Assembly: GCA_016183655.1 (NCBI GenBank)
Contig: JACPEH010000002.1
Span: forward strand, 1 to 64,000
DNA: 64,000 nucleotides
Direction: 5' to 3'
Source of the DNA: Rhodocyclales bacterium
GTDB taxonomy: Bacteria > Pseudomonadota > Gammaproteobacteria > Burkholderiales > Rhodocyclaceae
Below are positions 1 through 45,507 of this stretch, piece after piece. The translations under genes were made by a program, and so were the position numbers. Position 1 is the first letter of the stretch. Every line of letters starts with the position of its first letter. The notes beneath the pieces were generated by a model. The model saw nothing but the letters and a program-made list of their open reading frames with translations, searched no databases and had not been told where the DNA came from.

Positions 1-3000
1 GGCGACGTAGTTGCCATTTTCGTAGATCTGGAGGTTGCCTCCCGCCGCCGGGTACCAGGCATAGTCCAGCGAGGTGTAGGAGCGGTCGGTGGCGGGATCA
101 GAATTGAGCCCGAACATGCCGAACAGGTCGGTCTGGCCGGCCTGGGCCGAAACGTAGGCGCCACCAGTCAGACCGGTCAGGCTGTAGGCATCCGAACTCC
201 AACTGTTGTTGATGCCCGCGGTCTTGGTGATGGAGTTGCCGTTGATGGTTACACCGCTGGCATTACCCGGTGTGCCTGCCGCGCGGATGGGATGCCTGAC
301 TTCGATGATGCGGCCCCGGCTGTCGAAGGTGGTGTCGGTGCGCGCACCCAGCGCATCGATATCGACCCGCTTGTCGCCGAAGACATCGTAGCCGTGGGTG
401 ACCAACCCGCCGTCGGCGTGGCGTTCGAGGACGATTTCATCCTCGGCGCCGCCGTTGAGCCAGACCTGGGTATTGGTGTTGCCGTTGGCATCGACGGTGG
501 CGACGAGGCGGCCGGCGAGGTCGTAGACGAAGCGGGTGGTCGGCCGCAGTCGCTGGATGTAACCGTTGGCCTGTGTCACGTCGGTTTCCGGTGCCTGTTT
601 CCGGACGAGCCGGCCGGCGGTGTTGTAGGCGAGGTCGGTGACCCGGCCCAGGCCGTCGGTTTCGCGGACCACTTCGCCGAAGGCGTTGGTGGCCTGGCTG
701 CGGTGGATGCGGTTGCTGACGCTGGCGACATTCCGGATCACCCAGTCGAGGCGGCTGGCGCTGGCGCCGGCCGCCTGCAGCGTGAAGTTGCCGCCGTTAC
801 GCCCGAGGAGGGCGCCGTTGCCGTCGAAGACATCGTAGACGTATTCGTAGACGAGGCTGCCGCTAGCCGGCGGGGCGAGGCCTGCGAGATCGGCGCGGAA
901 TTCGCCGCCGGCCTGGGTAGTGCCCAGCGTTGTGTAGTCGCTGTTGCTGCCCTGGAGCCGGTAGCCGAGTTTGATGCTGGCGCCGCCCGTTTGCGGCGGT
1001 GTCAGGCGCAGGACAAGCGGGGCATTCTGGTTGGTCGCGGAGAGCACGGCGGCGTTGGCGCCGAGGCGGAGTGTCGCGGCGGTCTGGTTGTTGAGGAGGC
1101 CGCCCGCGGAGTAGGCCTTGAAGACGATGTCGTAGTCGTAGTTGCTGGTGGCGACGGGCACCAGCGCGGAGGCATCCCAGTCGAAGCGGCCGCCGCCGGC
1201 AGCGGCGGGATTGACCCGCAGCGTGGTGTAGGCGCCGGTGCTGCCGAGCGGCCGGTAGTCGATGTCGACGTAGGCGGTGTCGGCGCGCTCGGTCAGCTGC
1301 ACGATGGCCGGTTGCGTCCTGGCGGTGAACGTGGAGACCGAGGGATTGCCCGCCGCGTCCCGGCTGAATTCTGCCCGCGCTTCGTTGACGACGGTGGTAC
1401 CGTTGGTCGCGGTGAATTCGAGTTCGTAGGTGGTGTTGGCGGCAAAATAGCTGGCGTAGGCGAGGCTGAACCAGCCGGGCGTGGCAACGCCGAAGGGGCT
1501 GGCGTTGCCGAGGCTAAGCGTCGTCCAGGCGGCACCGCCGCCCTTGACCCGGTATTTGAGCGCGAGGCCGGTGGCGTTGCCTTGTTCGAGGAAATTGAGT
1601 TTGCCGGTGCTGTCGATCAGCCCGCGGCCGAAGCCGCCGATCGGGCCAAGGGCGCCGTTGTTCTGCACGACCGCCGGGGCAGCCGGGTTGGTGAGGTTGA
1701 GGGCGCCGGATTGCTTGTTGAGGATTTTTCCGGTGGCATCCAGCGCCATGTACTGGATTTCGTAGTTGCCGCCGGAGAGTGGGCTCCAGTCGTTGGCGAA
1801 CCAGCCGGCCATGAGGGCGCCGGCGGTGTTGGTCATCTGCGGGACATTGAGCAGGGTGTAGGCGTTTGTTGAGCCTGCTGGGCGGTACGCCATCACTACG
1901 CGCGAAGCGGTAGTGGGTTGGGCGGTGAATCTGACGACCTTAGCCAATGGCCCGTTTGTAATTACCTGTTCCGTATTTACGTAGGAAGGCCCTCCGCGCG
2001 AGGTTTGCGTGAGAAGCAACTCTCCAAGTGGGGTCTGCTTGTATATGGAAATGCCAAGGCTTACTGTCGTCCATTCACCGTAGTCCCAGTACTCAAAATG
2101 TACGGGAATGCTCGGAAGGTCTATCGCAGTCTGCGTGCCGGAAAAGAAGTAGTCGGTTTGCGAATTGGCTGCCCCCGAGCATGTTTTTGCCACTCTAATC
2201 CGAAGATTTCCATCTCCCAGCGAGCTAAGATTTGGAAGGTCGATATGAATTTGTGCAGAAATACCAGAAGGCGCAGCCCACGGTGGGCCGCCGCTTTCAA
2301 TGTAGGTGACCTTTTCTACCGAACTACCACCAATAGCCGAGAGTCCTCCATTTGCCAAAGGGTTGACCGCTACGGGTGCCGTTCCACCTAGACTCGACTG
2401 AGCAGAAACGGAGATCGTCGAATCATTCGACACAAAAACCGACTGCCCCGCGCTATTCGCCTGCACCGCAGCCAGTTCATGCACCGCCTCCATCGCCGGC
2501 TGGAAGCTGTCGGTGAGCTGGTTCCGGGCGTCGAAAACCGAGATGGTCTTCAGAGTGTCGCTGCGGGCGAGCACGGTGGCGAGGTCCTGCGCGGCGAGCT
2601 CGCTGCCGGTGCTCTGGACTGCCAGCGTCGCGTTGCCGTTGCCGTCGAACACGTAAACCTTGGCCACCCCGTCGCCGGAGTTCGATTTCCAGGCGCGGCC
2701 GGCGCGGTCGTATTCGGCGAATTCGGTCCAGGCAACCTGGGCGCCGCCGCCGTTGGTGCGCTTGCCGGTGATTTCTCCGAAGGCGTTGTAGCGCACTTCC
2801 TGGGTCGTGCCGGTGGCAAGGTCGGTGCTTTTTACCTGCCGGTTGGCGGCGTCGTACTGGTAGAGCGTCACGTCGTCGACCGGTGCGCTGCCGTCGGCAT
2901 TGCCGCGCCCGGCCAAGGTCTTGCGGGTGACGTTGCCGTTGGCGTCGACACGATAGCGGGTTTCCGCGCCGGCGGCGTCGGTCATGCTGCTCAGGAAGCC

Positions 3001-9000: not shown

Positions 9001-10485
9001 GGTGGTGTCGGTGCGTTGCAGGCCTGTCTTTGGCTGGGCTGCGGCCCAGGCAACGAGGTCGGCTTCGAGCGGAGCGGTGGCGCCCACGGCGAAGAAGCCG
9101 GCCGAATAGGCGAGGCTGCTGGTTTGCTGTCCCTGGGCGTTGTGGAGATATTCGACGACCCGCCCTTCCGCGCTGACGGTAAAGCGCAGATGCTGGTTGG
9201 CGTCACGGACGTAATGCGTGGATTGGGGCGCGCTTGCTTGCCCGGCTCCGGCGCCGTCGGGGTCGGCGACTGCGTAGGCCGTTTCCTTGATTAGCTGGTT
9301 GGCGAGGTTGTAATCGCGCTCGATGACGTTGCCGGCGCCATCCTGCTGGCGAATCCGGTTGCCATTGATGTCATAGGCGTAGGTGACGATATTGCCGCGG
9401 CCGTCGGTCAGTCGAATGAGGTCGCCGTTGCCGTTGTAGGCATAGTTGATGTCGTGTCCGCTGCCCGCTGGTCCCTGCAGGCGGACAAGGTTGCCGTCGC
9501 TGTCATGGGTGAGCGTGCTGGCTTGCCCGAGCGGGTCGGTGACGGTGGTGTTGTCGGCGTTGTAGGCGAAGCTCGTGATTTTGCCGGCGCCGTCGGTCAG
9601 GCTTGCAACCCGGAATTGGGTGTCGTAAGTGACGTCGAGCCGGGTACCGTCGCTATTGACGAGCGAGGCCAGCCGCGTGCTGGCGCCGTCGTAGGCGTAG
9701 GTGGTGGTGTAGGTGTTGCCGTCGCTGATGTCGCCGTCCGCCGGGGTCAGGTCGGTGCTGACGGCGGACAAGCGGCCGTTTGCGTCATAGCTGTAGCGAA
9801 CGCGGGTAGTGGCGCCGTCGACGGTGACGACCTGGATGCTGATGAGGCGCTTGCTGGTGCCGTCGTAGACGAGTCTGGTGGTTTCGCCGTTGGCGTCGCT
9901 GATTTCGGTGATCAGTCCATTGACGTCATAGGCATAGGTGAGGGCGTTGCCGTCCGGGTCGCTCTGCCGGGTAATCCGCCACTCGCCGGTGACCGGGCTG
10001 GCCTCGTAAGTCTCACCGATGCGAGTATCGCCGTCGGTGCAGAGCCAGGTGTTCGTCCCGTCGTCGTAGGCGAGGGTGTCGTAGGCGCCGCCACCGTCCT
10101 TGTTCGCATATCTGCCGAGGGTGGCGTCGTAGGTGTAGGTAAGTTGCGCGCCGTCGGCACCGCTACGCCTGACGGTGCTGCCGACCGTGTTGACGGTCCC
10201 GGTGAGCCCGCTGAGTTTTCGATAGAGGGAAAGCTGCCAGCCGTCGCCGTTGTCGAAGTCGAAGGCGGCGCCGCTGTTGTAGGTCCGCACGACCCCGATA
10301 TCCGGGCCGCGACCGATCAGGAGTTCGTCCTGGTGCTGCACGATCAGGTTGCCGGTTCTGGCGTTGACCGCGACGACCTCTCCGCCATTTCCCATTCCGA
10401 CCGGCCCCGGTTGTGCCGCTTCCCCAAGAACCGACGCCGAAGTTCCGGCGAGCCCCAATCCTGTTCCCGTTACGATCGTCACCAT
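1..10485 (-). CDS. Giant RHS/YD-repeat protein, C-terminus outside window
   Basis: One open frame of at least 3495 codons, read leftward from ATG at 10483-10485 and still open at base 1. The start follows GAGAGGG and has an upstream in-frame stop. The N-terminus has the RTGNLIVQHQDELLIGRGP and RTYNSG pattern seen at the head of large RHS proteins. From about 10.4 to 2.5 kb it is almost only YD repeats (motifs such as TYAYDVNG, YSYDANGRL). From about 2.5 to 0.9 kb come beta-rich, fibronectin/Ig-like segments, then YD repeats again, and at the edge a lectin-like segment (FGLNSDP, SYTSLDYAWYP, LQIYENG). No clear signal peptide is visible. Bases 1880-2440 are visibly AT-richer than the rest. Such proteins are usually surface or secreted polymorphic-toxin or adhesin-like shells; any toxin tip would lie outside the window. 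Confidence 0.93.
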   Translation of the reverse strand, partial: MVTIVTGTGLGLAGTSASVLGEAAQPGPVGMGNGGEVVAVNARTGNLIVQHQDELLIGRGPDIGVVRTYNSGAAFDFDNGDGWQLSLYRKLSGLTGTVNTVGSTVRRSGADGAQLTYTYDATLGRYANKDGGGAYDTLAYDDGTNTWLCTDGDTRIGETYEASPVTGEWRITRQSDPDGNALTYAYDVNGLITEISDANGETTRLVYDGTSKRLISIQVVTVDGATTRVRYSYDANGRLSAVSTDLTPADGDISDGNTYTTTYAYDGASTRLASLVNSDGTRLDVTYDTQFRVASLTDGAGKITSFAYNADNTTVTDPLGQASTLTHDSDGNLVRLQGPAGSGHDINYAYNGNGDLIRLTDGRGNIVTYAYDINGNRIRQQDGAGNVIERDYNLANQLIKETAYAVADPDGAGAGQASAPQSTHYVRDANQHLRFTVSAEGRVVEYLHNAQGQQTSSLAYSAGFFAVGATAPLEADLVAWAAAQPKTGLQRTDTTYDARGLATAITRYATTDNDGVGLADGSHSVTRYVHDSAGRLLQQIDPRGAATADIANDHLTAYAYDGLGRTISVTRYDAAGAGMPRQTLTTFNGAMNRVEMTFANGLVRLSTYDARGLLVSQVEQDGVTVLSTETRQYDAGGRLRILTDANGHQTYFLYDGTGRKTGEIDATGGFTEYFYNNAGQVIRSVRYATAVGADLAMLFAADGNGTIADVVTAAVRPAASDADQTSRAIHDAAGRLRFGIDARGYVTETRYDGTGRTLATIAYAHALNNAGGLDRLGREATPADIQFLGVAPTGDQIGLLPDSANDRVARNFYDNDGLLRGTLDGEGYLTEFRYDAAGRLIRTIRYGTASAPAERAAGTLTALIVGADANPSTNLTCFAWYNGQGQLVGSLDAEGYYTAVQYDLAGNRTRTTRFANRLVGIPSEQTAPQLVTATPGVAPSGGYVLVSSKDQVTQATWTAFNQLDSETAADGTLSKYAYDAAGKRLSTVIAQGAADSRSRQARYDQQGRLVQELAGLGSQALAALGSTPTQAQVDAVWAAYGTTHAYDAGGRRIRSTDANGNVTLFFYDAANRLTYSVRRVRNPANAAEWVGEVSARQFNALGQLAADIRYANRIAATPFAALTGGADSQIKAVGVIVADAGNDSRSDYTYLRTGELATSSVKLNATENTITTLIRDAFGAVSTRYSALDASRTRKAEYVYDRRGLLVQDQRDVVWAGNGSATGATVSTAYDAFGRAISRTDGRGIVRTAAYDKLGRQVSTVTAAGSLDLTQSASFDAFGRALTQTDPLGNVTTTAYAVDTARGTTTLTVTTPEGVVTQTVTDRYGQTLTLIDGRGNETRHGYDADGKLLTVRRWDKLAGVETLVETRNYDAVGNLLTSQDANGNDIAYSYDAANRLLTRRVDPAGLDLATTYAYDAQGRQISVTDANNVVTRTTYDLGGRAVLLVVDPDGLDLRTRYTYDLDGRRLTMVEAYGTPEARTTQVDYDSLGRRTRTVVDPGGLDLATTYAYDRNDNLVTRVEAAGTAIARTTRYGYDAADRLVYTIDALGAVLKNDHDANGRILQRTAYANALDLAGLAGDPGLAAIADLVTADPARDRTTRHVYDADGRERFAIDAIGAVTEHRYDANGNVVQRIRYANALQGTLAPGSAPQIAASAPADGAYVVTGAADRVTTSGYDAANRLSSRTEAFGTAIARTESWAYDGVGNAIRHTDARGNRTWFAYDKANRRVRTIDAAGYVTDAVWNPDGRKQSETRYVNAVALSANDDAWAYAGHAPNPVADADALSGDHTTRYAYDQAGRLLTVTDALGNLSRNAYDALGNLIDATTADGTPLASTLHRDYDALGRVIAETRAYGKTEASRTVYAYDAQGNQTTVVEAAGTAAARTTRQEFDLVGRKTAAVNGAGARSTTIYDAFGDIVKVTDALGNAGYFYNDALGRVTLRIDPEGAVVETRYDLHGNVTETTRYANKVVGTVSESARPQILDSAGSGVHVVRNDTADQRQHAFHDALGRKTEIRTWWGTGANDYYREAFTYDANGNVLSALARNGATTSYAYDALGRKIRETLPVTGRNAANADIPVENRYAYDAQGNLTQRIEACGLPEQRITAYVYDKLDRLLAETGEAITAFDPETQTDTLITPVKRRIYDAAGNLVEEIDARGQRTLHFYDALRQETGRVDAAGTYTAWTYDAAGNKTCQTIHANAVQAVGGGAIPNDTLPALVAAIPASGAYVITDAANDRSVVFSYDGAGRQTGTRIDNVTIGAYNSSVGGGTYQVSTGSLVTATVHDMLGNVVKTIDANGNITRNYFDRTGNKVGQLDAKRYLTVWIRDAAGNATQETRYANAIVDALVVGDDTPLATLLANVVPGSDDRVTVTAYDKLNRVTSETRKSVTGGTVNAGNGVLTEATADAVTTYAYDGLGNVVRKTDAIGAATDWVYDGLGRRTREQKPGYVDHLGAAVRPTTDTEYDGLNHIRREIVRGTDNAGEADDRITAYAYGAGGFLSSMTDAAGAETRYRVDANGNVTRKTLAGRGNADGSAPVDDVTLYQYDAANRQVKSTDLATGTTQEVRYNAFGEITGKRTNGGGAQVAWTEFAEYDRAGRAWKSNSGDGVAKVYVFDGNGNATLAVQSTGSELAAQDLATVLARSDTLKTISVFDARNQLTDSFQPAMEAVHELAAVQANSAGQSVFVSNDSTISVSAQSSLGGTAPVAVNPLANGGLSAIGGSSVEKVTYIESGGPPWAAPSGISAQIHIDLPNLSSLGDGNLRIRVAKTCSGAANSQTDYFFSGTQTAIDLPSIPVHFEYWDYGEWTTVSLGISIYKQTPLGELLLTQTSRGGPSYVNTEQVITNGPLAKVVRFTAQPTTASRVVMAYRPAGSTNAYTLLNVPQMTNTAGALMAGWFANDWSPLSGGNYEIQYMALDATGKILNKQSGALNLTNPAAPAVVQNNGALGPIGGFGRGLIDSTGKLNFLEQGNATGLALKYRVKGGGAAWTTLSLGNASPFGVATPGWFSLAYASYFAANTTYELEFTATNGTTVVNEARAEFSRDAAGNPSVSTFTARTQPAIVQLTERADTAYVDIDYRPLGSTGAYTTLRVNPAAAGGGRFDWDASALVPVATSNYDYDIVFKAYSAGGLLNNQTAATLRLGANAAVLSATNQNAPLVLRLTPPQTGGASIKLGYRLQGSNSDYTTLGTTQAGGEFRADLAGLAPPASGSLVYEYVYDVFDGNGALLGRNGGNFTLQAAGASASRLDWVIRNVASVSNRIHRSQATNAFGEVVRETDGLGRVTDLAYNTAGRLVRKQAPETDVTQANGYIQRLRPTTRFVYDLAGRLVATVDANGNTNTQVWLNGGAEDEIVLERHADGGLVTHGYDVFGDKRVDIDALGARTDTTFDSRGRIIEVRHPIRAAGTPGNASGVTINGNSITKTAGINNSWSSDAYSLTGLTGGAYVSAQAGQTDLFGMFGLNSDPATDRSYTSLDYAWYPAAGGNLQIYENGNYVA

Positions 10486-41721: not shown

Positions 41722-42732
41722 ATGCGCGTGAAACCCAGCGAAATCGTCAGACAGCTCAACGAGCACGTGGTCGGCCAGGACGACGCCAAGAAGATCCTGG
41801 CGGTCGCCGTCTATTCCCACTTCAAGCGGACGGCGCGGCAGGCGGCGTCGACGGAAGCGCCGGTCGAGCTGGTGAAGAGCAACATCCTGCTGATCGGCCC
41901 CACCGGCACCGGCAAGACGCTGCTCTGCGAGACGCTGTCGCGCATCCTCGGCGTGCCCTTCGTCACCGCCGACGCGACGACGCTGGCGCAGACCGAATAC
42001 GTCGGCGCCGAGATCGAGGCGATCCTGCAGCGCCTGCTCGACAAGGCCGGCGGCGACCTGGAGAAGGCGCAGCGCGGCATCGTCTTCATCGACGAGGTGG
42101 ACAAGCTGAAGGTGCCGGCCGGGCAGCCCCGCGCCGCGTCCGGCGAGCGCGTCCAGCACGCGCTCTTGAAGATCATGGAAGGGGCGCCGGTCAAGCTGAA
42201 GAGCGGGCACTACATCGACACCACGCAGGTGCTGTTCATCTGCGGCGGCGCCTTCGTCGGCCTCGGCGACATCCTCGCCCGCACGCACAGCTTCGGCTTC
42301 ATCTCGACCTCGGCCGACGACAGCCAGAAAATCCTCGACCGGCTGAATGCCCGCGTCAAGCCGACCGACCTCTACGAGTTCGGGCTGATCCCCGAGTTCG
42401 CCGGCCGCCTGCCGGTCGTCGCCCGGCTGCAGGAGCTCGACCGCGACATGCTGGTGCGCATCATGGTCGAGCCGAAGAACTCGATCTACAACCAGTTCCG
42501 CGAGATTCTGAAGAGCGAGGGCGTCGAACTGCAGATCGAGCCGCCGGTGTTCGAGCAGGTCGCCGACCTGGCGATCGAATACAAGGCCGGCGCGCGCAGC
42601 CTGCGCGGCATCTTCGAGGAGATGATCACGCCGGTGCTCTACGTCGTCCCGGACAATCCGGCGGTGAAGCGGGTGGTGATCCCGTCGCTGTTCGAGGAGG
42701 CGCGCTTCTTCGGCGCGCCGGCGGTGTCCTGA
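41722..42732 (+). CDS. ClpX-like AAA+ ATPase without zinc-binding domain
   Basis: 336 aa, against ~420 in ClpX. Walker A GPTGTGKTLL, Walker B GIVFIDEVDKL, arginine-finger region FGLIPEFAGRLPVV and sensor 2 KAGARSLRGIFEEM are intact. The N-terminal four-cysteine domain that binds substrates and adaptors is absent. The ClpX GYVG pore motif is EYVG, the RKH loop is shortened, and the IGF loop that docks on ClpP is replaced by SFGFISTSADD. It is thus probably a paralog for a special job. It heads the unit with the membrane protein, radical SAM/SPASM enzyme and polyAsn protein; 11 bases to the next gene. Confidence 0.9.
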   Translation: MRVKPSEIVRQLNEHVVGQDDAKKILAVAVYSHFKRTARQAASTEAPVELVKSNILLIGPTGTGKTLLCETLSRILGVPFVTADATTLAQTEYVGAEIEAILQRLLDKAGGDLEKAQRGIVFIDEVDKLKVPAGQPRAASGERVQHALLKIMEGAPVKLKSGHYIDTTQVLFICGGAFVGLGDILARTHSFGFISTSADDSQKILDRLNARVKPTDLYEFGLIPEFAGRLPVVARLQELDRDMLVRIMVEPKNSIYNQFREILKSEGVELQIEPPVFEQVADLAIEYKAGARSLRGIFEEMITPVLYVVPDNPAVKRVVIPSLFEEARFFGAPAVS

Positions 42733-42743
42733 GGGAGGGAGGC

Positions 42744-43208
42744 ATGGCGACGGAAGCGGCGGCCTTCGCGGTCTTCAAGTACAAGCACGGCAGCCGATCG
42801 CGCATGAGTCCGGCGCGGCGCAAGTGGCTGCTCGGCACCCTCCTGCTGGCGGCGCTCGGCAGCATCGTCCTCTTTCCCGGCGGGCTGGCGCTGTTCCTGG
42901 CGCCGCTGCTGGTCTGGCTGACGGTGCCGCGGCAGCTGGCGCTCGGCCCGCGCTACCTGATCTGCGGCGAGGTCATCGTCTATTACGGCAACGTCGACCA
43001 GGTGCTGCTCGACCGCCAGGCCGGCAAGCTGACGCTGGTCTCCGCCGGCGACCGGCGCTTCTCGATCGAGCGCGAGCGCTTTCCGACCAATGCGCGCAAG
43101 AGCCACAAGATCGCCGCCAACAAGGAGGCGAAGTTCGGCAAGGTCGCCGGCAAGCTGATCGAGAAGATCCGCCACGCCTCGCCGGCGGTCGAGGTCAGCG
43201 GCGCATGA
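42744..43208 (+). CDS. Small membrane protein in radical SAM operon
   Basis: 154 aa. A hairpin of two hydrophobic helices (WLLGTLLLAALGSIVLFPGG and ALFLAPLLVWLTV, residues ~31-65) is followed by a cytosolic beta-rich segment (YLICGEVIVYYGNVDQVLLD) and a lysine-rich helical tail. GGGAGGGAGGC precedes the ATG. ATGA overlap with the radical SAM gene. Not recognised; it could tether the complex to the membrane. Confidence 0.8.
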   Translation: MATEAAAFAVFKYKHGSRSRMSPARRKWLLGTLLLAALGSIVLFPGGLALFLAPLLVWLTVPRQLALGPRYLICGEVIVYYGNVDQVLLDRQAGKLTLVSAGDRRFSIERERFPTNARKSHKIAANKEAKFGKVAGKLIEKIRHASPAVEVSGA

Positions 43209-45070
43209 ACGCCCCGGAAACCATCGTCGTCCCCGCTGCCGCAGCGTCGCCGGTCGTGCCGGCGGAGTTCGCGCGCAGCATCCACCTGCTCTACGTGCCG
43301 ACCTTGAACTGCAACCTCGGCTGCAGCTACTGCTACCTCGGCCGGCAGACCAGCGAGGCCGACCTGCGCGCCGACAGTGCGCGCGCCGTCGACACGCTGC
43401 GCCATGCGCTGGCGGCGCTGGAAGCGGCCGGCGTGCTCGCCTTCAACGTCTCGCTGCACGGCGGCGAGGTGACGACGCTGCCGCCGGCGGTGCTCGACGA
43501 GCTGTTTTCGCTGATCCGCGCGCACTACCTGCGCCACTTCGACGCCCTGACGGCGCTCGGCCACCGCAAGTCGGCGCCGCACATCAAGACCAACCTGTAC
43601 AAGTTCGCGCCGCTCTACGAACTGTTCGACCGGCACAAGGTGTCGATCAGCGCCAGCATCGACCTGCCGCTGGCGCTGCACGCGCGCCACCGGCTGACGC
43701 GCAAGGGCGAGCCCTGGCTTGCGCGTACGCACGACAACCTGCGCCTGCTGGCGCGCTACCCGCACGCGAAGAAGATCTCGGCGACGCTGTCCGCCGAGCA
43801 TCTGGAAGATATTCCGGCGCTGATCGACGACATCTGGTTCATCCACCGCGAACTCGGCTTCGACATGAACCAGATGAACCTGATGTTTGCCTTCCCCTCG
43901 GCGCTCAACCGCGACAAGGTCGGCGACGCGGCGCTGACGCCATGTACGCCGGCGCAGCAGCTGGCGCTGTACGACGCGCTGCAGGCGGCGTTCACCGGCA
44001 GCGAGCTGGAGGAGGGGCTGCGCCGCCACTGGTTCGACGAGTTCACGCCGAGCTACTGCACCAACGCCGTCAATTGCGGCGAGAAGTTCTACCTGCTGCA
44101 GGGCGACGGCAACGTCTATTCCTGCGTGCGCGGGCAGGGCATCCCGGAGTTCCACTACGGCAACGTCTTCGCGCATTCCGTCGACGAGATCCTGCAGACC
44201 GGCGCGCGCAAGATCGCCGAGATGCACCAGCGCCACGGCTTCGACGCCGGCTGCCGCCGCTGCGGCCACCTGCCGCTGTGCAACACCGGCTGCCCGGTGG
44301 TCAAGCACCAGAACGCCAGCGCCCGCTCCTACACCTGCGAACTGCAGCAGGCGATCTACCGTGACCAGCCGCGCCGCTTCCCGGTGTCGGCGCCCGACGA
44401 GGTCGCCGCCCATGCCCGCGACTACGCGCGGCGCATCCACCCGGCGCTCGCCGTCGCCGAGACGCCGCCGACGCATGCGGCGCCGCTGTTCGTGCTGCCG
44501 CCGGAACTCGACGAGGAGAAGAACACGCTGCGCGCGCTGATCGACGCCGACCCGCTGCTGCAGGCGCTCTACCGCGACGACGCCTTCCTCCTCGAAGTCG
44601 GCGACGAGCTGGTGCCGCTCGCCTCGCAACTGTTGAAGCAGCGTGCCGACTGGTACACGCTGACGCCGGCCGACCTCCTCGTCGTGCACGTGCGGCGCGA
44701 GCTGTTCGACGCCGGCTGCAGCGAGCCGGTGCGCAACACGCTCTACCTGCAGATGCTGCGAGACACGCCGGTGGTCTATGGCGACGAGCGGCGGACGAAG
44801 CAGGAACACCTGTTCAGCTGGCAGCTGCACACGCCTTGCCTGGAGGCCAGCGCACGCCTTGGCGAGGGCTGGCTGATGGCCGACCTCGCCGGCCTGGTTG
44901 CGCTGCACCGGCGGTTGTATCGGCGCGGCGTGCGCAACAATCTGTTCTTCACCACCGGCTACCTGCGCGACTACCACTACCAGAAGCAGAAGGCGAACGC
45001 CTTCTACCACATCCAGGCAGTCAACCTGCCTTTCCAGAACTTCGAATTCTTCTACCTGGCGCAGGAGTGA
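43205..45070 (+). CDS. Radical SAM/SPASM enzyme with C-terminal extension
   Basis: 621 aa. Cluster cysteines C36, C40, C43 in NCNLGCSYCYLG; SLHGGEVTTLP fits the SAM-binding GGE motif. A SPASM region (~285-385) carries NCGEKFYLLQGDGNVYSCVR, DAGCRRCGHLPLCNTGCPV and a later Cys, giving auxiliary clusters as in peptide-maturing enzymes. About 230 further residues have no known match. SPASM proteins typically modify ribosomal peptides or proteins; the 144-aa polyAsn protein starting two bases after the stop is the obvious candidate substrate. Confidence 0.88.
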   Translation: MNAPETIVVPAAAASPVVPAEFARSIHLLYVPTLNCNLGCSYCYLGRQTSEADLRADSARAVDTLRHALAALEAAGVLAFNVSLHGGEVTTLPPAVLDELFSLIRAHYLRHFDALTALGHRKSAPHIKTNLYKFAPLYELFDRHKVSISASIDLPLALHARHRLTRKGEPWLARTHDNLRLLARYPHAKKISATLSAEHLEDIPALIDDIWFIHRELGFDMNQMNLMFAFPSALNRDKVGDAALTPCTPAQQLALYDALQAAFTGSELEEGLRRHWFDEFTPSYCTNAVNCGEKFYLLQGDGNVYSCVRGQGIPEFHYGNVFAHSVDEILQTGARKIAEMHQRHGFDAGCRRCGHLPLCNTGCPVVKHQNASARSYTCELQQAIYRDQPRRFPVSAPDEVAAHARDYARRIHPALAVAETPPTHAAPLFVLPPELDEEKNTLRALIDADPLLQALYRDDAFLLEVGDELVPLASQLLKQRADWYTLTPADLLVVHVRRELFDAGCSEPVRNTLYLQMLRDTPVVYGDERRTKQEHLFSWQLHTPCLEASARLGEGWLMADLAGLVALHRRLYRRGVRNNLFFTTGYLRDYHYQKQKANAFYHIQAVNLPFQNFEFFYLAQE

Positions 45071-45072
45071 AC

Positions 45073-45507
45073 ATGGGGCCGCAGGACCTGGAACGGATCG
45101 CCTACACCGTCGAGTGCTTCCTCAACGCGCTGCGCCTGCACGACGGACGGGCGCGCACCGCAGTCGAGGAGCAACTGGTCAAGTGGCTGGCGCGCGACGC
45201 CGGCAAGGACGGCTATGTCGTCTACAACCTCGGCGCGATCTACTGCCACGGCGCCGGCGGCCGCGTGAGGAAGAGCTTCACGCTGGCCGACGTGAAGGAG
45301 GGGCGGACGATCTGGTGCGACGGGCGGAAGCTGTCGCTGCTGGAAAGCAAGGCCTACGAGAAGGGCGGCAAGCTGGTGATGCTCGGCGCCGCCGGCCTGA
45401 TCCTGACGATGCCGGGCAGCGGCGCCGCGGCGACCTCGCCGAAGAAGCAGGAGCGCAGCAGCAACAACAATAACAACAATAACAACAATAATAATAACAA
45501 CGGCTGA
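45073..45507 (+). CDS. Candidate substrate protein with C-terminal 13-asparagine tract
   Basis: 144 aa. The folded-looking N-terminal part (RIAYTVECFLNALRLHDGR, KDGYVVYNLGAIYCHGAGGR, LSLLESKAYEKGGKLVMLGA) is followed by a flexible linker and KKQERSS, then N131-N143 and a final glycine. GGCGCAGGAGTGAAC gives a strong ribosome site, two bases after the radical SAM stop. The layout leader-linker-low-complexity core resembles a RiPP precursor, and radical SAM epimerases of the PoyD type act on Asn-rich cores, but nothing here proves modification. Confidence 0.85.
   Translation: MGPQDLERIAYTVECFLNALRLHDGRARTAVEEQLVKWLARDAGKDGYVVYNLGAIYCHGAGGRVRKSFTLADVKEGRTIWCDGRKLSLLESKAYEKGGKLVMLGAAGLILTMPGSGAAATSPKKQERSSNNNNNNNNNNNNNG
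45463..45501 (+). repeat. AAC/AAT trinucleotide tract
   Basis: Thirteen Asn codons; the first nine are three copies of AACAACAAT. AT-rich within a GC-rich gene; length changes by slippage would keep the frame. Confidence 0.95.

Follow-up and report, generated by a model that had tools for sequence, protein, structure and literature searches.

Organization of the four-gene unit

The stretch of DNA analyzed here (hereafter the window, 64,000 nucleotides of the Rhodocyclales bacterium assembly GCA_016183655.1) carries four consecutive genes that encode a ClpX-like ATPase, a small membrane protein, a radical SAM/SPASM enzyme, and a protein ending in a run of asparagines (Table 1). We provide evidence that the enzyme and an asparagine-ended partner form a recurrent pair, found in bacteria and in Campylobacter prophages, in which the enzyme probably oxidizes the asparagine run. 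A preliminary description of this DNA, made from the letters and their open reading frames, took the gaps of 11, −4, and +2 bases between the genes to mean a single transcript. The gene coordinates bear out these gaps; a consensus scan of the unit found neither a promoter nor a plus-strand terminator, so it is the spacing that speaks for a single transcript. The same description was accurate about the enzyme, which has a CxxxCxxC motif, eight SPASM cysteines, and an extension of about 230 residues, and about the C terminus of the fourth gene product, 13 asparagines followed by glycine. Because AAC and AAT codons are mixed in this run, it is no single-unit DNA microsatellite.

Table 1. Coordinates of the genes and features of the window unit, with neighboring genes of one Bacilli locus
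Feature	Position	Strand	Evidence
ClpX-like AAA+ ATPase, 336 residues	41722..42732	+	NF003745 match, profile positions 60-395 of 418
Small membrane protein, 154 residues	42744..43208	+	Hydropathy; alignment of 16 sequences; tblastn match beside enzyme
Radical SAM/SPASM enzyme, 621 residues, proposed maturase of the asparagine tail	43205..45070	+	
CxxxCxxC radical SAM motif, C36, C40, C43	43310..43333	+	Invariant in alignments
SPASM cysteines C285, C291, C307, C350, C353, C359, C363, C378	44057..44338	+	Invariant; aligned to anSME 4k36
C-terminal domain of enzyme, about 230 residues	44381..45067	+	Conserved motif YHYxK...NA.YH....NLPF...EF
Asparagine-tailed protein, 144 residues, proposed substrate	45073..45507	+	
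Folded alpha/beta domain, residues 1-100 of asparagine-tailed protein	45073..45372	+	
Tail, 13 Asn and terminal Gly, predicted disordered	45463..45504	+	
BspA-type leucine-rich-repeat and Zn-ribbon genes beside Bacilli pair	L055:3246-4727 and 107-1120 (-)		

Linkage of the enzyme to asparagine-tailed proteins

Twenty-one loci came from one scan of genome contigs and further ones from additional genome searches. Once loci that duplicated an already counted genome (L027, L043, L052, L061-L064, and L120) and loci cut by a contig end (L028 and L057) had been removed, 30 uncut bacterial loci remained, the window included, each showing the DNA that flanks the enzyme on the side of the tail gene. The gene adjacent to the enzyme ends in an asparagine run at every one of the 30, and the tail is for that reason not a product of chance. 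The run is 6 to 18 residues long (12 to 15 in 20 loci) and is closed by glycine in 25 loci, arginine in 3, histidine in 1, and nothing in 1. Among 20 homologs of the tail protein found by the folded domain alone, some of them identical to proteins of the counted loci, 17 have an asparagine-rich end and a final glycine, a few with an internal histidine, lysine, or threonine.

Enzyme and tail also occur together across whole genomes. With an enzyme threshold of E ≤ 1e-50 and a DNA pattern of six asparagines, any residue, and a stop, the enzyme was found in 10 of 199 genomes of the family Rhodocyclaceae and the pattern in exactly those 10. The genomes behind the other loci hold one pattern each, positioned at the operon copy in 19 of 19 (four of these genomes, those of L032, L037, L038, and L048, are also among the 199), and a stricter pattern occurred only twice in 274 genomes of the class, in the window genome and in G281, both times beside the enzyme.

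The pair extends to Bacilli, whose enzymes are 38 to 40% identical to that of the window and whose tail proteins, of 120 to 130 residues, have a linker rich in Ser and Gly and end in tails that include N9-H, N13, N15-R, and N16-R. Of 145 genomes surveyed in the Bacilli family, 6 have the enzyme and 9 the pattern, namely the 6 enzyme genomes and 3 in which the pattern sits in no open reading frame of more than 40 residues. One of the 6 enzyme genomes, G549, has a tail gene that runs off a contig end and the pattern at the end of another contig, beside a Zn-ribbon gene of the kind that follows the tail gene in its relatives.

The enzyme and the asparagine tail are thus genetically linked and co-occur in the sampled Proteobacteria, Desulfuromonadia-type bacteria, and Bacilli, and the conserved core consists of the radical SAM/SPASM enzyme and the asparagine-tailed protein, joined outside Bacilli by the small membrane protein. 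The preliminary description had named two observations that would count against its proposal, homologous enzymes lying without a polyasparagine gene and a tail missing from relatives. Looked for as refutations, neither was seen: the pair was kept at all 30 loci and the relatives carried tails, of varying length. This constant pairing with a variable tail supports the proposal that the 144-residue protein is the likely substrate. It also provides, at 30 of 30 loci, a candidate for the dedicated precursor encoded beside the maturase that is a criterion of ribosomally synthesized and post-translationally modified peptide (RiPP) systems; no recurrent leader protease or exporter stood out by eye in the gene clusters of 23 regions, a single Bacilli locus included.

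Predicted chemistry of the enzyme

The three cysteines of the CxxxCxxC motif and the eight anSME-type SPASM cysteines, placed by alignment to anSME 4k36, do not vary in either alignment of the enzyme (40 of 40 and 62 of 62 sequences). No cysteine beyond these 11 is invariant, the next best being C505 (33 of 40). The radical SAM barrel and SPASM fold typical of SPASM-domain radical SAM enzymes are both present. TIGR04085, a model of the short SPASM domain, is the sole above-cutoff NCBIfam match among the 25 of 42 matches listed; the best full-length family among those listed, TIGR03942 (anSME), scores 69.6 bits against a cutoff of 349.45, and two Pfam matches fall below their cutoffs. Matches to solved structures span residues 21 to 392 and leave outside them the C-terminal domain, for which a predicted model gives a mixed fold with many strands.

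Of the known systems, anSME (PDB 4k36-4k39) shares all eight SPASM cysteines with the window enzyme, which falls short of the anSME family score. Unlike anSME, the window enzyme has the additional C-terminal domain and an asparagine-tailed partner, and the position after the third SPASM cysteine, which is the catalytic aspartate base in anSME, is valine or histidine among the aligned enzymes. The SPASM-type RiPP maturases (ChlB, CteB, SuiB, GrrM, and DynA) have the same domain order and fold and are likewise encoded beside a small likely substrate, whereas the partner in the window combines a predicted folded domain with a homopolymer tail. The SPASM enzymes characterized by 2017, anSME excepted, lack one of the eight cysteines (PMC5491770).

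The protein database holds 2108 relatives of the enzyme, of which 120 were listed. In a tree of 40 enzymes, those of phages split from those of bacteria (support 100/100) and those of Bacilli join that of L065, a gammaproteobacterial locus (99/99). Support is weak at the deeper bacterial forks (86/57 and 86/59), the placement of the Desulfuromonadia-type pair among them. Asparagine tails were seen in loci from each of these groups, a scope that leaves out proteins known by identifier alone, including those of Myxococcaceae.

Given these features, we think it probable, though far from certain, that the enzyme is encoded with its likely substrate, the adjoining asparagine-run protein, and carries out a predicted anSME-like two-electron oxidation of residues of the run. 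The preliminary description had mentioned epimerization of the PoyD type, in which the tail asparagines would be converted from L to D, as by proteusin epimerases of that type and by EpeE, leaving a D-Asn or alternating D/L tail. PoyD and EpeE do perform radical SAM chemistry on peptides, as we propose for the window enzyme, and the substrate of PoyD is an asparagine-rich core. Known peptide epimerases, however, use a spare cysteine, the proposed hydrogen atom donor; the window enzyme has no spare invariant cysteine and, unlike PoyD and EpeE, has a full SPASM domain. Because all eight SPASM cysteines are present and no other is invariant beyond the CxxxCxxC motif, we infer oxidation in preference to epimerization, which we consider unlikely.

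Asparagine-ended tail fibers in Campylobacter prophages

A tblastn search of plasmids and phages returned one record of each, a Campylobacter coli plasmid with prophage genes and phage CAM-P21. The enzyme homolog, 33% identical to that of the window, sits in the contractile-tail module of both records, two genes after a tail fiber that ends in SGSTNNNNY. We do not lean on CAM-P21 (record MW462221.2, version 2), because its genome announcement was retracted over a sequence described as incorrect or incomplete. The module is also present on ten IMG/VR contigs and two more (L094 and L110), with fibers, including those of other types (L078, L080, and L081), that end in NNNNY, NNF, NNS, or NNNNN. 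PHROG 1802 covers both the window enzyme, over residues 31-615 at E 6e-39, and, at E 6e-142, that of the Campylobacter prophages; the library describes it as a phage "radical SAM domain-containing protein" and names no substrate, the link to asparagine-ended fibers being drawn here.

Sister phages, retrieved by way of the preceding tail gene, provide the comparison. They keep the N terminus of the fiber, have no match to the enzyme or to its 211-residue companion, carry a DUF4376-type gene in the place of the module (Pfam on two, tblastn on the others), and have fibers ending in FMELR, LNVR, NRGHV, MIWN, and similar sequences. Distinct 40-residue fiber C termini end in Asn-Asn or Asn-Asn-x in 12 of 12 cases with the module (14 records) and in none of the 11 cases lacking it (19 records; Fisher p = 7e-7), where the sequences, which form by eye about seven types with the module and six without, are not fully independent. 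Left out of this count were five records in which neither gene is visible (L084, L086, L111, L112, and L113). Some genes are broken: the enzyme of L094 is split between two frames, that of L080 has a late frame break, and the fiber gene of L108 is interrupted. The pairing of enzyme and asparagine tail thus holds for the tail-fiber C termini of Campylobacter prophages as well.

The 211-residue protein (PHROG 10241; L070:5351-5986 and homologs) lies between fiber and enzyme in all 14 module records, where it occupies the place of the DUF4376-type gene of the sister phages, and perhaps serves as a chaperone that brings the fiber tip to the enzyme.

These fibers bear directly on the idea that the enzyme leaves the tail untouched and acts on another molecule, with the tail working alone as a degron, in adhesion, or in oligomerization. 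The link between enzyme and tail comes from sequence comparison, which leaves room for such a view, and the ClpX-like unfoldase beside the tail in the genus of the window could suggest a degron. That ATPase, however, was not found in other lineages, and several types of phage fiber carry an asparagine end in company with the enzyme and in no other case, a pattern that is difficult to account for if the two do not work together. We regard an independent tail as highly improbable.

Radical SAM genes have been noted in other phages. Two virulent Campylobacter phages encode 11 and 12 radical SAM proteins, for which the relevant passages name no substrate (PMC2853527), and a giant Aeromonas phage has eight radical SAM genes in a structural gene cluster that also holds five tail fiber genes (PMC12390700). 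Phages named in the literature as carriers of such genes are CP220, CPt10, and 332-Vera, with those of 332-Vera lying in a structural cluster with tail-fiber genes; Erwinia phage Derbicus and Ralstonia phage RP12 carry them too.

A proposed radical modification of asparagine runs

In the mechanism that we propose, the C-terminal domain of about 230 residues would hold the asparagine tail while a 5'-deoxyadenosyl radical abstracts hydrogen from the Cα or Cβ of an asparagine. The electron would exit through two auxiliary clusters, and the product would be dehydroasparagine or an Asn-Asn bond, at about −2 Da per event. The outcome would be a modified fiber tip in phages and, in bacteria, a modified tail on a small protein, possibly kept close to the membrane by the product of gene 2.

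The residue before the run suggests another target. Here the run would serve as a tag for recognition at the C terminus, with the modification falling elsewhere, for example on the preceding serine, cysteine, or threonine, in an anSME-like formation of formylglycine. The residue in question is serine in 26 of the 30 loci, cysteine in 2, and threonine in 1, and anSME oxidizes serine or cysteine with the same eight cysteines. It is, however, glutamine in L042 and aspartate in the homolog P0131, and glycine precedes the two asparagines of four distinct phage fiber ends. We consider a tag of this kind rather unlikely.

Several observations weigh against oxidation of the run itself. The co-occurrence could also reflect a tail that is just a tag for recognition. 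The position of the anSME base is valine in 35 and histidine in 5 of 40 enzyme relatives; the residue that closes the run differs between tails (G, R, H, Y, F, S, or N) and can be absent; four distinct phage fiber ends have just two asparagines; and the fiber-end motif was defined after the fibers had been seen. Three of the 20 tail-protein homologs (P0123, P0126, and P0134) lack the tail, apparently through being cut or frame-shifted, and the loci examined are a minority of the neighborhoods of the 2108 enzyme relatives.

Literature searches returned no description combining polyasparagine or asparagine-rich sequences with radical SAM in 5.39 million open papers, a scope outside which preprints and most subscription papers lie, and none there combining radical SAM, tail fiber, and post-translational modification. 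The pairing of a radical SAM/SPASM enzyme with an asparagine-tailed likely substrate, for which the open literature yielded no description, likely serves tail modification. More tentatively, and with slightly less than even confidence, we propose that an undescribed radical modification of C-terminal asparagine runs is common to bacteria and phages: the fiber tips of Campylobacter prophages would carry radical-installed nonstandard residues where their sister phages have a DUF4376-assisted tip, and the same chemistry would act in free-living bacteria on a dedicated, membrane-located asparagine-tailed protein. If true, these proposals would extend radical SAM chemistry to a homopolymeric substrate and probably to a new bond or residue, would give PHROG 1802 a function, and would mean that the host-contacting end of the fiber may be chemically altered by phages.

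Accessory genes

The product of gene 2 has a strong hydrophobic stretch at residues 33 to 59 by hydropathy and no match in Pfam or NCBIfam at E ≤ 1. An alignment of 16 family members shows the hydrophobic stretch followed by a conserved basic C-terminal domain with the motif ARK..K.......KF. By tblastn, 23 of the 25 counted loci outside Bacilli encode the protein next to the enzyme; the exceptions are L034, which has no match, and L048, whose sequence begins inside the enzyme. It may plausibly anchor the complex at the membrane, as the preliminary description proposed. In Uliginosibacterium, a tandem pair of this family precedes the enzyme (L038:8867-9361 and 9358-9996).

The ClpX-like ATPase had been given a core role in presenting or remodeling the substrate, which the wider comparison does not support: it is an accessory gene seen in a single genus, that of the window, where all 5 loci have it, whereas none of 15 further loci that show about 9 kb of upstream sequence does. 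A weak AAA match of 43 residues (E 0.004) lies on the downstream side of the enzyme in L049. The window protein passes NF003745 (368.6 bits; cutoff 359), yet it scores below the cutoff of TIGR00382 (339 versus 370.75) and lacks the N-terminal zinc-binding domain of ClpX, its matches beginning at profile positions 60 and 68. It is a second copy in its genome, alongside another ClpX-like gene that is 51% identical to it and likely the housekeeping one.

Other genes take the place of gene 2 in the Bacilli loci, and no membrane-protein match was found in L047. A BspA-type leucine-rich-repeat gene lies upstream in 6 of 6 Bacilli loci, interrupted in L053, and, of the 5 whose downstream sequence is visible, 4 have a Zn-ribbon gene there, L056 being the exception. 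For the L055 pair, the only one compared with Pfam, LRR_5 scores above its cutoff and the zinc ribbons below theirs. The products of these genes are possible partners of the Bacilli enzyme and its tail protein. A gene for what appears by eye to be an M16-type peptidase (L047:7065-8363) lies a short distance upstream of one Bacilli enzyme-tail locus.
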